From an uncultured Bacteroidales bacterium (GTDB lineage: Bacteria > Bacteroidota > Bacteroidia > Bacteroidales > P3): DNA of 64,000 bases. Shown here piece after piece: positions 9,688 to 12,280 of the stretch. A program made the position numbers and the translations under genes. The notes under the pieces are model-generated. The model saw only the letters and a list, made by a program, of their open reading frames with translations. It did not search any database and was not told the origin of the DNA. Position 1 is the stretch's first letter. Each line of letters begins with the position of its first letter. The stretch is from the NCBI GenBank assembly GCA_900318835.1, contig ONLW01000012.1:1-64000 (forward strand), read 5' to 3'.

Positions 9688-9706
9688 CAGCCTCGGAGAA
9701 ATAATT

Positions 9707-9737
9707 TTGGTCAAATCAAAATAAGTGTGTATTTTTG
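9707..9737 (+). promoter_or_regulatory. Promoter of the structured RNA / methylase module
   Basis: TTG at 9707-9709, 20-base spacer, TATTTTTG at 9730-9737. It is divergent from the promoter at 9659-9687, with only about 20 bases between the two. Confidence 0.75.
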
Positions 9738-9742
9738 CAGTC

Positions 9743-9937
9743 GCAAACGGGGAGAAATCCGTTTGCCGAGAGAAAGCATTTGCATATTCATAGAACGTCC
9801 TTGAAGTTTGGCCGCAGATAGACGTATTTACAGAATAGAGCAGATGTCCATTTTACGTGGATGTCTGAATTGTCTGTAAATACGGGTTAGGCCAAACACC
9901 CAAGGACGTGGACGAGGAAGATGTCCACGTTTTTTTT
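9743..9937 (+). ncRNA. Highly structured leader or small RNA (about 195 nt)
   Basis: Three hairpins lie between a promoter and a terminator. P1 pairs GCAAACGG (9743-9750) with CCGTTTGC (9759-9766). P2 is a 115-nt irregular hairpin: ACGTCCTTG/CAAGGACGT (9795/9901), GTTTGGCC/GGCCAAAC (9806/9890), a 12-bp stem 9823-9834/9873-9884, and a 10-bp apical stem 9841-9850/9858-9867 that pairs fully if two G-U pairs are allowed. P3 is the terminator at 9906-9937. The frame contains no plausible gene. Size and the long, bulged hairpin recall 6S-type RNAs such as 6S-Flavo, but I cannot confirm this; a regulatory leader of the methylase gene is equally possible. Confidence 0.7.
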
Positions 9938-10000
9938 GTCCTGCATGGGACTGGGTGTTTGGGTTAGCTGTACGTTCGATGAATGCACGTATAACTAACC
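9894..10000 (+). promoter_or_regulatory. Alternative pairings in the methylase leader
   Basis: AAACACCCA (9894-9902) can pair with TGGGTGTTT (9952-9960) and GGAC (9904-9907) with GTCC (9938-9941), which would trap the terminator in a larger fold. A further hairpin pairs GGTTAG (9962-9967) with CTAACC (9995-10000), with TACGT/ACGTA inside, and ends 10 bases before the methylase ATG. Confidence 0.5.
9906..9937 (+). terminator. Intrinsic terminator overlapping the main hairpin
   Basis: ACGTGGAC (9906-9913) pairs with GTCCACGT (9923-9930), followed by eight T. Its first four bases are also the last bases of the P2 stem, so the two structures compete. Confidence 0.8.
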
Positions 10001-10010
10001 GTCTGACCCA

Positions 10011-11027
10011 ATGGTAACACGCACATCACGGCTGCAAGGCAGCAAAAAGAAACGGGACGACGAATACTACACGTTGTTCCAAGATATAGCCGACGAGGTG
10101 AGTCACTACTTGCCTCAACTGCGCAGCAAACGCATTCTCTGTCCATGCGATTGGGACGAAAGTTACAATGAGGAGATTGTATACAAAGAGGAAGGCTATG
10201 TGCTGGGGCGTGGATTGTTTGGTCCCGAAGGAACAATAAAGAATATCGACATAGCCAAAACACGCGAGAAGATAGAGAAGCGGATGGATTTGGTGAAATG
10301 CCAATTCGTCTACTATCTGCTCAATCAAGCAGAGGAATGGGGTATTAAGTCAATTAGCGTAAGCGGCTATAATCCACAGACAGGCGAGGGGGTGCGATAC
10401 CAGGATATCGATTACAGCTATTACGATGTTATCATCACCAATCCACCATTCAGTCAATTTGATGAGTTTATCGACCTAATGGTGAAAAATGGCAAGGAGT
10501 TTCTGGTAATAGGGCCCCAGACGGCACCAACAGAGAAGAGTATCATTCGGCATTTCCAAGAGGGGAATATCAGAGTTGGATATCACTACCATTTAAGTGG
10601 TTTCAAACGCCCAGATGGAACAACGCTACCCAAACAGCATAACACTCCACGCAGCTGCATGTGGTACACCAATTTACAGGTGGAGCAGGAGTCAAAGGAA
10701 CTCACGCTGATGGCATCATACCACGATAATCCAGAGAAATATCCAAAGTATGTGAATTATGATGCCATTGAGGTTCCAACAGTGGCAGATATTCCCAATG
10801 ACTATTACGGAGAAATGGGCGTTCCCATTACCTTTATGCAGAAATACAATCCTGAACAGTTTGAAATAATAGGATCTAGTCGTCAGTTGGGCAGGAAAAT
10901 GAAAGACTGTGTTGGGAAAGATGCTGTATACGTTCAGGGAGGTGTTCGATTCTACTTAGATGAAGGCAATAACCACTACAAATGTCTTTGGGACAGAATG
11001 GTCATCAAACGGAAAAAGGAGGACTAA
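10011..11027 (+). CDS. EcoRI-family DNA adenine methyltransferase
   Basis: 338 residues, the usual length for the EcoRI methylase family, which methylates adenine N6 in DNA using S-adenosylmethionine. The catalytic motif IV is clear as IITNPPFSQFDEF (about 142-154), after an N-terminal ILCPCDWDESYNEE segment; the C-terminal DRMVIKRKK is also family-like. M.EcoRI modifies GAATTC, but the specificity of this protein cannot be inferred. The gene is more AT-rich than the surrounding chromosome. It is 3 bases upstream of a DUF262-HNH nuclease gene, so the two form one unit behind the structured leader. Confidence 0.88.
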   Translation: MVTRTSRLQGSKKKRDDEYYTLFQDIADEVSHYLPQLRSKRILCPCDWDESYNEEIVYKEEGYVLGRGLFGPEGTIKNIDIAKTREKIEKRMDLVKCQFVYYLLNQAEEWGIKSISVSGYNPQTGEGVRYQDIDYSYYDVIITNPPFSQFDEFIDLMVKNGKEFLVIGPQTAPTEKSIIRHFQEGNIRVGYHYHLSGFKRPDGTTLPKQHNTPRSCMWYTNLQVEQESKELTLMASYHDNPEKYPKYVNYDAIEVPTVADIPNDYYGEMGVPITFMQKYNPEQFEIIGSSRQLGRKMKDCVGKDAVYVQGGVRFYLDEGNNHYKCLWDRMVIKRKKED

Positions 11028-11030
11028 TTT

Positions 11031-12128
11031 ATGACAGTAAAGGATTTATACGAGAAGGTAGTCAACGGTGTTATCATCAGCGATATTGAGTTGCAACGTG
11101 CCATTGTATATGACGCCGACAAGCAAGCGAAGGTGATAGATAGCATTTATCACGAAATTCCCTTGCCTGCATTCTACCTATGGCAGCGTGAAGATGGCAA
11201 ACTTGAAGTGCTGGACGGTAAGCAACGCATCGAGTCCATCAAGAAATTCATGCAAGGAAACTTGTTGTACAATGGCAAGTCATGGAAAGAATACGCCTAC
11301 AATAGTGACCTGCAACAGGTGGTGAACAACACCGAGTTGACCACCATCATCTGTAGCGGTACGGAAGAGAAGAAACGTGAGATATTCAAACGCATCAACA
11401 CTCTTGGTGTGGCTCTCTCAAAGTTCGAAGTACTCAACGGATTGTACCACGGCAATTACATCGAGGGACTGAACGATTACTTCGCCCACGATGCTAATGT
11501 CCGCAAGGTATTACCCGGTGCAACGCTTGACCGAGGCGATAACAAATACCACTTGCTTGAGTACATCTACTATGTGCGTAATGGGAATGTGTTCCCCAAG
11601 AGAGGTGAACTGGACGACTATGTGCAGCAACACAAGGACGAGTCGTTTAACGAAGAGTTGAAGAAAATAAAGCCTTACATCAGTTTCATACGCGACATCT
11701 TTGGTGATGCGTCCAAGATTGGATCGACTCTAAAATTCAAACTGGCTGTGAAATACATCAAAAACCGCTCCATCTGGTTGCAGAACAAAGACGACATCTG
11801 CAAGGATTGTAATGCTTTCATCAAAAGTGACGGCTACAAGCTGTCGTCCAGCAAGGAAGAGGATATCGAAGCCATGATACTCGGTATTGTAGGCAACTTG
11901 CGGGTAGACCCCAAACGTCTGTTTACTGCTGACGACAAGAAGGAATTGCTCTCCCAGCTCTCGCCTAACGAACAGGGACTATATGAATGCAAGAAATGTC
12001 ATCAGCATTTTACATCAGATGAACTCACAGTTGACCATATCAACCCATGGAGCAAAGGAGGTAGGACTGTACTCTCGAATGCTCAATTGATTTGTAGGGC
12101 GTGCAATAGCAGTAAAGGAAATCAATAG
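11031..12128 (+). CDS. DUF262-HNH endonuclease
   Basis: 365 residues. The N-terminal DUF262 (ParB/GmrS-like) domain holds EVLDGKQRIESIKKF near 60-75, the DGQQR-type motif thought to bind nucleotide, and IFKRINTLGVALSKFEVLNG. The C-terminus is a complete HNH finger: CKKCHQHF, TVDHINPWSKGG, SNAQLICRACNSSKGN, with two CxxC pairs and the catalytic Asp-His. Related DUF262 proteins are restriction factors such as GmrSD and BrxU. Paired with the upstream EcoRI-type methylase it reads as the nuclease half of a two-gene modification/restriction module; that pairing is inferred from spacing and shared low GC. Confidence 0.87.
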   Translation: MTVKDLYEKVVNGVIISDIELQRAIVYDADKQAKVIDSIYHEIPLPAFYLWQREDGKLEVLDGKQRIESIKKFMQGNLLYNGKSWKEYAYNSDLQQVVNNTELTTIICSGTEEKKREIFKRINTLGVALSKFEVLNGLYHGNYIEGLNDYFAHDANVRKVLPGATLDRGDNKYHLLEYIYYVRNGNVFPKRGELDDYVQQHKDESFNEELKKIKPYISFIRDIFGDASKIGSTLKFKLAVKYIKNRSIWLQNKDDICKDCNAFIKSDGYKLSSSKEEDIEAMILGIVGNLRVDPKRLFTADDKKELLSQLSPNEQGLYECKKCHQHFTSDELTVDHINPWSKGGRTVLSNAQLICRACNSSKGNQ

Positions 12129-12210: not shown

Positions 12211-12250
12211 CGCCGGAGGGCTATTGAGAGTAACCCCCTGACGGGGTATG

Positions 12251-12280
12251 ACCCCTGCGGATGACCCGCAGGGGTTTATT
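12251..12280 (+). terminator. Terminator after the T9SS remnant
   Basis: ACCCCTGCGG pairs perfectly with CCGCAGGGGT around a 5-base loop, followed by TTATTG. A weaker C/G hairpin (12233-12247) lies just before it. Confidence 0.7.

Follow-up and report, generated by a model that had tools for sequence, protein, structure and literature searches.

A family of structured 5' leader RNAs in Bacteroidota, apparently undescribed, before restriction-modification and many unrelated operons

Organization of the locus

The sequence analysed here is a stretch of 64,000 nucleotides from an uncultured Bacteroidales bacterium (contig ONLW01000012.1 of assembly GCA_900318835.1), hereafter the window. Two neighbouring genes on its + strand encode an EcoRI-family adenine methyltransferase (MTase; 10011–11027; PF13651, E 6e-59; type II MTase by PADLOC) and a partner protein with a GmrSD_N (DUF262) domain and an HNH nuclease domain (11031–12128; PF03235 and PF01844). 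Consisting of an MTase gene and an endonuclease gene, the pair is predicted to be a type II restriction-modification system. Behind the HNH gene, a strong terminator-like hairpin of 11 pairs (12250–12276) likely marks the end of the operon.

Ahead of the MTase gene, motif matching located a Bacteroidota-type promoter, TTTG-N20-TAnnTTTG, on the + strand at 9706–9737, one match compared with 0.04 expected in the 3.2-kb locus; it was absent from the output of a generic sigma-70 scan. Judging from this promoter, transcription probably starts near 9743. The region 9743–9939 was predicted to fold at −81 kcal/mol, compared with −45.2 ± 4.2 kcal/mol for shuffled sequences (z −8.44; 0 of 200 shuffles as good), and z was −8.43 when the leader was extended to the ATG.

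All elements of this leader lie on the + strand. A 5' hairpin, which differs among relatives, is formed at 9743–9766 by GCAAACGG and CCGTTTGC (9743–9750 with 9759–9766). It is followed by a conserved element, AGC(A/G)UUUGCU..UAUUC, designated E (9775–9796), which we presume to be the moving strand. The main hairpin spans 9795–9909 and contains P1 (9795–9803 with 9901–9909), P2 (9806–9813 with 9890–9897), P3 (9823–9834 with 9873–9884, from the fold and covariation) and the apical hairpin P4 (9841–9867). A segment overlapping the end of P3 and the start of P4, designated S (9832–9848), is the predicted partner of E in a pseudoknot, PK1, according to the pairing tests described below. The 3' strand of P1 has the bases ACGT in common with a terminator-like hairpin (9902–9934), which is strong here and in many relatives and runs into eight T (9930–9937). 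The strand just 5' of the T-run, designated T (9919–9930), can pair within the terminator-like hairpin or with the 3' strand of P4 (9855–9866), the latter pairing being designated PK2. A sequence-only reading of this DNA had proposed the promoter, the 8-bp hairpin, the four-stem main hairpin, the terminator with eight T and the four bases common to terminator and main stem, and each was recovered at these positions.

A perfect 11-bp match reaches across the terminator-like hairpin. The strand CCAAACACCCA (9892–9902) can exchange P2 for TGGGTGTTTGG (9952–9962), located 3' of that hairpin, and the duplex of the whole region was calculated at −23.9 kcal/mol. The match contains the alternative pairing of AAACACCCA with TGGGTGTTT that had been pointed out earlier. 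The start-codon-proximal segment (9968–10010) contains a 3' hairpin and a possible second E site (S'), whose pairing with E is weak in the window (−11.2 kcal/mol).

The sequence-only reading had left two identities side by side, a small RNA gene of the 6S-Flavo type and a leader of the DNA modification genes. A search with all Rfam models gave no family at the gathering threshold in the window; around the locus, three chance-level matches appeared at E ≤ 10, with no RF01685 (6S-Flavo) among them, and RF01685 gave 0 matches in the window's genome at E ≤ 1. Identity with 6S-Flavo was therefore rejected. A 6S-type RNA gene would fit the size and the long interrupted hairpin, which had been the argument for it, but the lack of RF01685 matches and the seven family matches in this one genome make it extremely improbable. 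The leader identity was retained on the basis of position and structure.

Distribution of the RNA and the genes behind it

Using the MTase as a query, we found 36 loci in species genomes. An HNH partner lay near the MTase gene in 35 of them, and the exception, L035, stops at a contig edge. An RNA model, R1, was built from 21 leaders, including that of the window, and matched the + strand upstream of the MTase gene in 23 of the 36 loci; R1 itself had been built on 20 of these. Minus-strand R1 matches at true loci were discarded as the palindromic hairpin read in reverse. Among the 31 relatives titled as Bacteroidota, 23 have the model-detected RNA before the MTase and HNH genes, and the other eight show a similar layout by eye; the leaders of L023–L028, L035 and L036 had no match to R1 or to a second model, R2, below E 0.1 and were left out of the counts. 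The RNA was not found before the MTase gene in five loci, four titled as Patescibacteria or Bacilli and one with no group (L029, L030, L032, L033 and L037), where the best R2 match (E 0.18) was away from the gene start. Since the RNA is missing in these relatives not titled as Bacteroidota, it appears, in this small set, to track the host group and not the enzyme pair. In the Bacilli locus L033, a small HTH-like ORF, recognised by eye and resembling a controller protein, lies directly before the MTase gene, where Bacteroidota have the RNA.

These loci bear on the explanation that the RNA serves the nuclease system itself, for instance as a guide or an RNA antitoxin, instead of regulating it. 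Its occurrence before the pair in Bacteroidota would agree with this, as would the HNH domain, which weakly resembles the HNH of IscB and Cas9d, far below the cut-off. However, the five pair relatives not titled as Bacteroidota have no such RNA before the gene, and the family also precedes Dcm, MmeI-like, Tsp45I, AlwI and other restriction-modification genes as well as SusC-like and lipoprotein genes. We consider this explanation very unlikely.

At E ≤ 0.01, R1 matched 24 of 190 genomes of the same family, divergent copies included; this search and the set of MTase relatives are not independent, as some genomes are apparently identical records (e.g., L038 and L014). R2 was built from 23 diverse members of a 29-locus set, with L003, L011, L017, L056, L058 and L067 omitted, of which L058 and L067 are truncated or partial copies. 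At E ≤ 1e-4, R2 matched 128 of 393 genomes of the order and 43 of 395 genomes in a sample of the phylum, and the copy numbers from both searches are lower bounds because scoring was limited to 7 candidates per genome. One carrier of the RNA, Prevotella communis E15-14 (locus L016), is a cultured organism. All 83 loci given to R2 match once each, which is no independent test, as the loci had been fetched through R1 or R2 matches or as MTase relatives. These copies almost certainly form one family of structured 5' leader RNAs of about 165 nt in Bacteroidota, placed before many unrelated operons. This variety of operons and the phylum-wide spread go beyond what the reading of a single sequence could reveal.

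Searches of 20 loci with divergent copies against Rfam 15 detected tRNA and Acido-Lenti-1 only, none of them at the leader RNA, and in five of these loci nothing was found at the leader RNA at E ≤ 1. At L072:5343-5542, two Acido-Lenti-1 matches (RF01687) lie in opposite orientation about 110 nt apart.

The copies are flanked by recurring signals. TAnnTTTG is present at most 200 nt upstream in 59 of the 82 copies with enough upstream sequence, compared with 554 of 4150 random 200-nt stretches. At least four U occur in the last seven model positions in 82 of 83 copies and in 13% of background 7-mers, these positions belonging to the model. A same-strand ATG ORF of at least 60 codons lies no more than 200 nt behind 78 of the 83 copies (raw count); the RNA stands shortly before a coding sequence on its own strand, as the leader identity implies.

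The window's genome contains seven matches to the family, six strong (E ≤ 2e-9) and one weak (1.4e-4). For five of the six strong copies, PADLOC assigned the genes immediately behind to defence or restriction-modification. One of the five is the window leader with its MTase and HNH pair; copies C25 and C35 each precede a type IIG or type I-like MTase with a specificity subunit, C39 a gene for an HKD and Snf2 helicase protein and then a type IIG-like MTase, and C34 Eco57I-like MTases; the first gene behind the sixth strong copy, C22, received no assignment. Among divergent copies in other genomes, L068 precedes a Tsp45I restriction endonuclease and an N4/N6 MTase, L069 a type IIG-like protein with ResIII and Eco57I, L074 two D12 MTases and an AlwI-type endonuclease, and L077 Eco57I/MmeI-like MTases. 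Judged by eye, L083 precedes a type I system, and L085 and L087 a PAPS-reductase/BrxC-like pair.

We then took 60 loci of the order from among the matches listed, approximately in rank order and skipping those at contig ends, and 58 of them gave a first ORF. Among the best 25 of 59 Pfam families in these ORFs were N6_Mtase (7) and Eco57I (7, overlapping with the former), the MmeI MTase domain (4), C5 methylase (3), N6_N4 (3), HSDR_N_2 (2) and GmrSD_N (1), together with Por secretion tails (7), BspA-type LRR_5 (3) and BACON (2). By eye, about 18 of the 58 first ORFs begin a restriction-modification operon. The nearest upstream ORFs of the 58 loci contained no methyltransferase family among the best 25 of 80 PADLOC families (at least 3 members each). 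PDC-S02 proteins of PADLOC were found upstream of 4 of the 58 leaders, for example at L097:1951-2979, which also matches a PD_DExK model, and this recurrence may mark mobile or hot-spot regions.

In 40 loci of the wider phylum inspected by eye, the leader precedes genes for SusC-like transporters, sigma-factor-like proteins, secreted proteins and small proteins. Restriction-modification is thus a strong theme of the family and not its sole one. Related leaders lie about 200–240 nt before SusC-like genes in L177, L179, L181, L183, L188, L196 and L202, and a second similar hairpin-like stretch is present near the start codon in this set (both by eye). The leaders of L106, L111 and L117 are 87–94% alike and precede homologous HTH-like first ORFs of 70 aa. 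The protein of L106 had no Pfam match; such a protein might act together with the RNA or regulate it.

Near-identical leaders also occur before first proteins without BLAST similarity to each other (L078/L079, 99.4%; L102/L104, 97.0%; L182/L186, 96.7%; L083/L085, 93.9%), indicating that the leader has been exchanged independently of the genes. These pairs, several matches near contig ends and the truncated 5' halves of L058 and L167 would also be expected of a mobile or recombining DNA or RNA module, such as a hairpin insertion site, a cassette boundary or part of a retroelement, with cargo genes behind it by chance. Nevertheless, no recombinase or reverse transcriptase recurred in the downstream ORFs by eye (upstream ORFs were scanned with PADLOC only), the window leader had no match among 72,556 plasmid records, and the pseudoknot covariation, the promoter, the U-run and the gene behind 78 of 83 copies point to an RNA. 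We regard such a module as quite unlikely. The truncated 5' halves in L081/L058 and in the viral contig L167 are apparently remnants of deletion or exchange. A phage origin was rejected, as a single viral contig contained the RNA, with the truncated 5' half only, and close relatives of the HNH protein were not found in viral contigs.

Covariation and competing pairings

The alignment comprised 83 copies and 39 modelled pairs; fitting it to the structure of the model favours P1–P4, and the copies had been found with models containing P1–P4 and the U-run. In this alignment, 38 of the 39 pairs vary on both sides (32.3 in shuffles), 90.3% of cells are paired (63.9% in shuffles), and the covariation score is 0.693, compared with 0.225 for shuffled alignments and 0.075–0.110 when the structure was slid by 1–3 columns. 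All seven modelled pairs of P1 and all eight of P2 vary on both sides, with 96.6% and 98.1% of cells paired, respectively, and the inner helix of P4 reaches 99.6%. Stem conservation and covariation among homologous leaders, the check suggested with the sequence-only reading, are thus evident. Of all helices, the local terminator hairpin is conserved least, with 70.5% of cells paired, and its energy is near zero in some copies, such as L138 (0.0 kcal/mol) and L124 (−1.6 kcal/mol) among the 21 of 83 listed. The U-run may therefore have another role in these copies.

We evaluated further pairings with an own-versus-foreign test, in which the pairing energy of two segments of the same leader was compared with that of segments from different leaders, using 26 dissimilar copies and independently of how partners had been fitted in the alignment; each p value stands for a single test. 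P1 (p 1.5e-8) and P2 (p 4.1e-6) served as positive controls. PK1, tested as E with the 5' half of the P3/P4 domain, gave p 7.5e-8, and PK2, tested as T with the 3' side of the domain, gave p 4.9e-7 (26 dissimilar copies each). PK1 rests on the former value, as the test of S with E (p 1.5e-8) was biased by the selection of S as the best partner of E. S also pairs better with its own than with foreign 3' halves of the domain (p 1.2e-4, with P3/P4 pairs included), so that PK1 has a competitor. The terminator pairing, T with the 3' strand of P1 plus its own arm, was weaker (p 0.04). T with that P1 strand alone (p 0.34) and T with E (p 0.83) showed no own-leader preference.

Two candidates were rejected after testing in dissimilar copies: a simple antiterminator formed by E and GGAUAA after P1 (P0; p 0.11), and a GGGU/ACC pairing around the 3' strand of P2 that was convincing by eye (p 0.15).

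Pairings with the spacer before the gene were tested in the same way. The 3' strand of P2 and its junction paired better with the spacer of the same leader than with those of others (p 0.008, 18 dissimilar copies), in agreement with the alternative pairing proposed from the single sequence. E preferred the last 45 nt before its own AUG (p 0.0038, 18 dissimilar copies) and showed no preference for the remaining spacer (p 0.9, 12 copies). In the 65 copies with usable spacer, the best duplex of E with the start region begins a median of 40 nt and ends a median of 17 nt before the AUG. Energies of −15 kcal/mol or lower were reached by 20 of 29 restriction-modification leaders and 9 of 36 others (p 4.5e-5), with restriction-modification status assigned partly by eye; 21% of foreign pairings with restriction-modification E elements also reach this value. 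Outside the restriction-modification leaders, the pairing of E with the start region showed no trend (mean z −0.05). The window leader combines a weak pairing of this kind with a strong pairing of the P2 strand with the spacer. Taken from sequence, T would pair with the 3' strand of P4 or with its own arm, S with E or with its own domain, and E with the start region, so that competing pairings are predicted to touch the terminator or the start region.

These results also bear on a stand-alone small RNA, for which transcription would stop at the T-run and an RNA of about 195 nt would act in trans, for example by pairing E with start regions, whether in its own mRNA or in others, the downstream genes being mere neighbours or targets. 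The RNA's own promoter motif and the T8 after a strong hairpin are in keeping with this, and so are the parts of E that are nearly invariant among copies before unrelated genes and the second E site at a median of about 17–40 nt before the AUG. In contrast, a gene on the same strand closely follows 78 of 83 copies and some copies have no strong terminator hairpin. Action in cis is favoured because E pairs better with the spacer within than between leaders, and we judge a stand-alone small RNA unlikely.

Proposed mechanism and comparison with known systems

We propose that the RNA represents a new class of cis-acting switch leader, and we assign this reading, including the mechanism below, a probability of roughly 0.6. 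Transcription, termination, switching and the direction of control are predictions of this scheme. Transcription from the leader's own promoter would produce the RNA as the 5' part of the operon mRNA. Internal pairing of E with S (PK1) would, together with P1, P2 and P4, yield a compact fold. T would choose between the 3' strand of P4 (PK2) and its own 5' arm, the latter pairing forming an intrinsic terminator, and through this choice of partner the fold would set whether the polymerase stops or reads through. In the restriction-modification leaders a second layer is likely. There, once the polymerase has read through, the segment before the start codon could pair with E and/or the 3' strand of P2; this would disrupt the first fold and might mask the translation start, so that pairing of E with S or with the start region would expose or cover the start. 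Candidate triggers are a ligand, a protein, or the timing of transcription and translation. What speaks most against a scheme built on the terminator alone is that the local hairpin is weak in some copies.

A broader extension of the switch-leader reading is possible but speculative, and we hold it to be improbable on balance. One RNA class would act as a common timing switch for most restriction-modification systems in these cells, and a shared signal (phage entry, a new host, or a cofactor such as SAM/SAH) would license or silence unrelated systems together. The 5' end would move between the internal pseudoknot and the start codon, as an RNA counterpart of C proteins.

To our knowledge, protein controllers account for most of what is known about the coordination of several self-endangering restriction systems in bacteria and their activation on entry into a new host. 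With a phylum-wide RNA leader standing before five different restriction or defence operons in a single genome, control of restriction by RNA would become open to direct test. The family is, moreover, a large orphan one, in a phylum where regulation by RNA has been little explored, and its design, a single 5' strand with two mutually exclusive predicted partners, appears unusual. The importance of the family lies in its spread over the phylum, its link to restriction-modification and the two-partner 5' strand, and is tempered by the mixed genes downstream.

In the part of the source available, FopS are described as trans-acting sRNAs of about 65–70 nt with an R1' seed, nine intergenic, four antisense and one from a 3' UTR (PMC11697453). 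FopS/GibS of Bacteroides resemble the leader RNA in being multi-copy in Bacteroidota, with sigma-ABfr promoters and pairing near the start codon, whereas the RNA described here measures at least some 165 nt and is located in leaders; it is set apart from FopS by this partial description (PMC11697453). The Bacteroidetes motifs listed in the accessible text of Weinberg 2010 (PMC2864571) are 6S-Flavo, Bacteroidales-1, Flavo-1, Bacteroides-1/-2 and GUCCY-hairpin. They are structured RNAs of the same phylum, with GUCC-containing hairpins by name; those with Rfam models did not match the leader RNA, and GUCCY-hairpin and Bacteroides-2 have no Rfam number. As far as its main text was available, PMC2864571 contains neither 'restriction' nor 'methylase'. 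The main texts, as available, of PMC9723704 (Flavobacterium psychrophilum) and PMC7366714 (B. thetaiotaomicron) do not contain 'restriction'. These two papers report, in the same portions, structured or multi-class RNAs such as Rfp11, Rfp13, Rfp15 and Rfp18, from which the leader family is set apart without sequence comparison. Word searches of PMC11109978 and PMC8632094 returned no Bacteroid*, Prevotella, Parabacteroides or Porphyromonas. PMC8040213, in the text available, gives 3161 automatic RNA candidates from human microbiomes, and the leader RNA could be among its supplementary entries. The leader family is apparently undescribed, being absent from Rfam 15 and from the literature searched, with supplements and subscription papers outside its scope.

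Riboswitch and attenuator leaders with intrinsic terminators, such as TRAP/trp and the pseudoknotted preQ1, share with the new RNA the position as a 5' leader, a conserved pseudoknotted fold, mutually exclusive pairings, a U-run and the presence before several operons per genome. The new RNA differs from them in having downstream genes without a common pathway and in lacking an Rfam match, and these genes are too varied to name a ligand. Among the controllers of restriction-modification, C proteins act upstream of type II restriction-modification genes and set their expression. The leader RNA likewise lies upstream of restriction-modification genes; the C protein is a protein, whereas the leader is an RNA.
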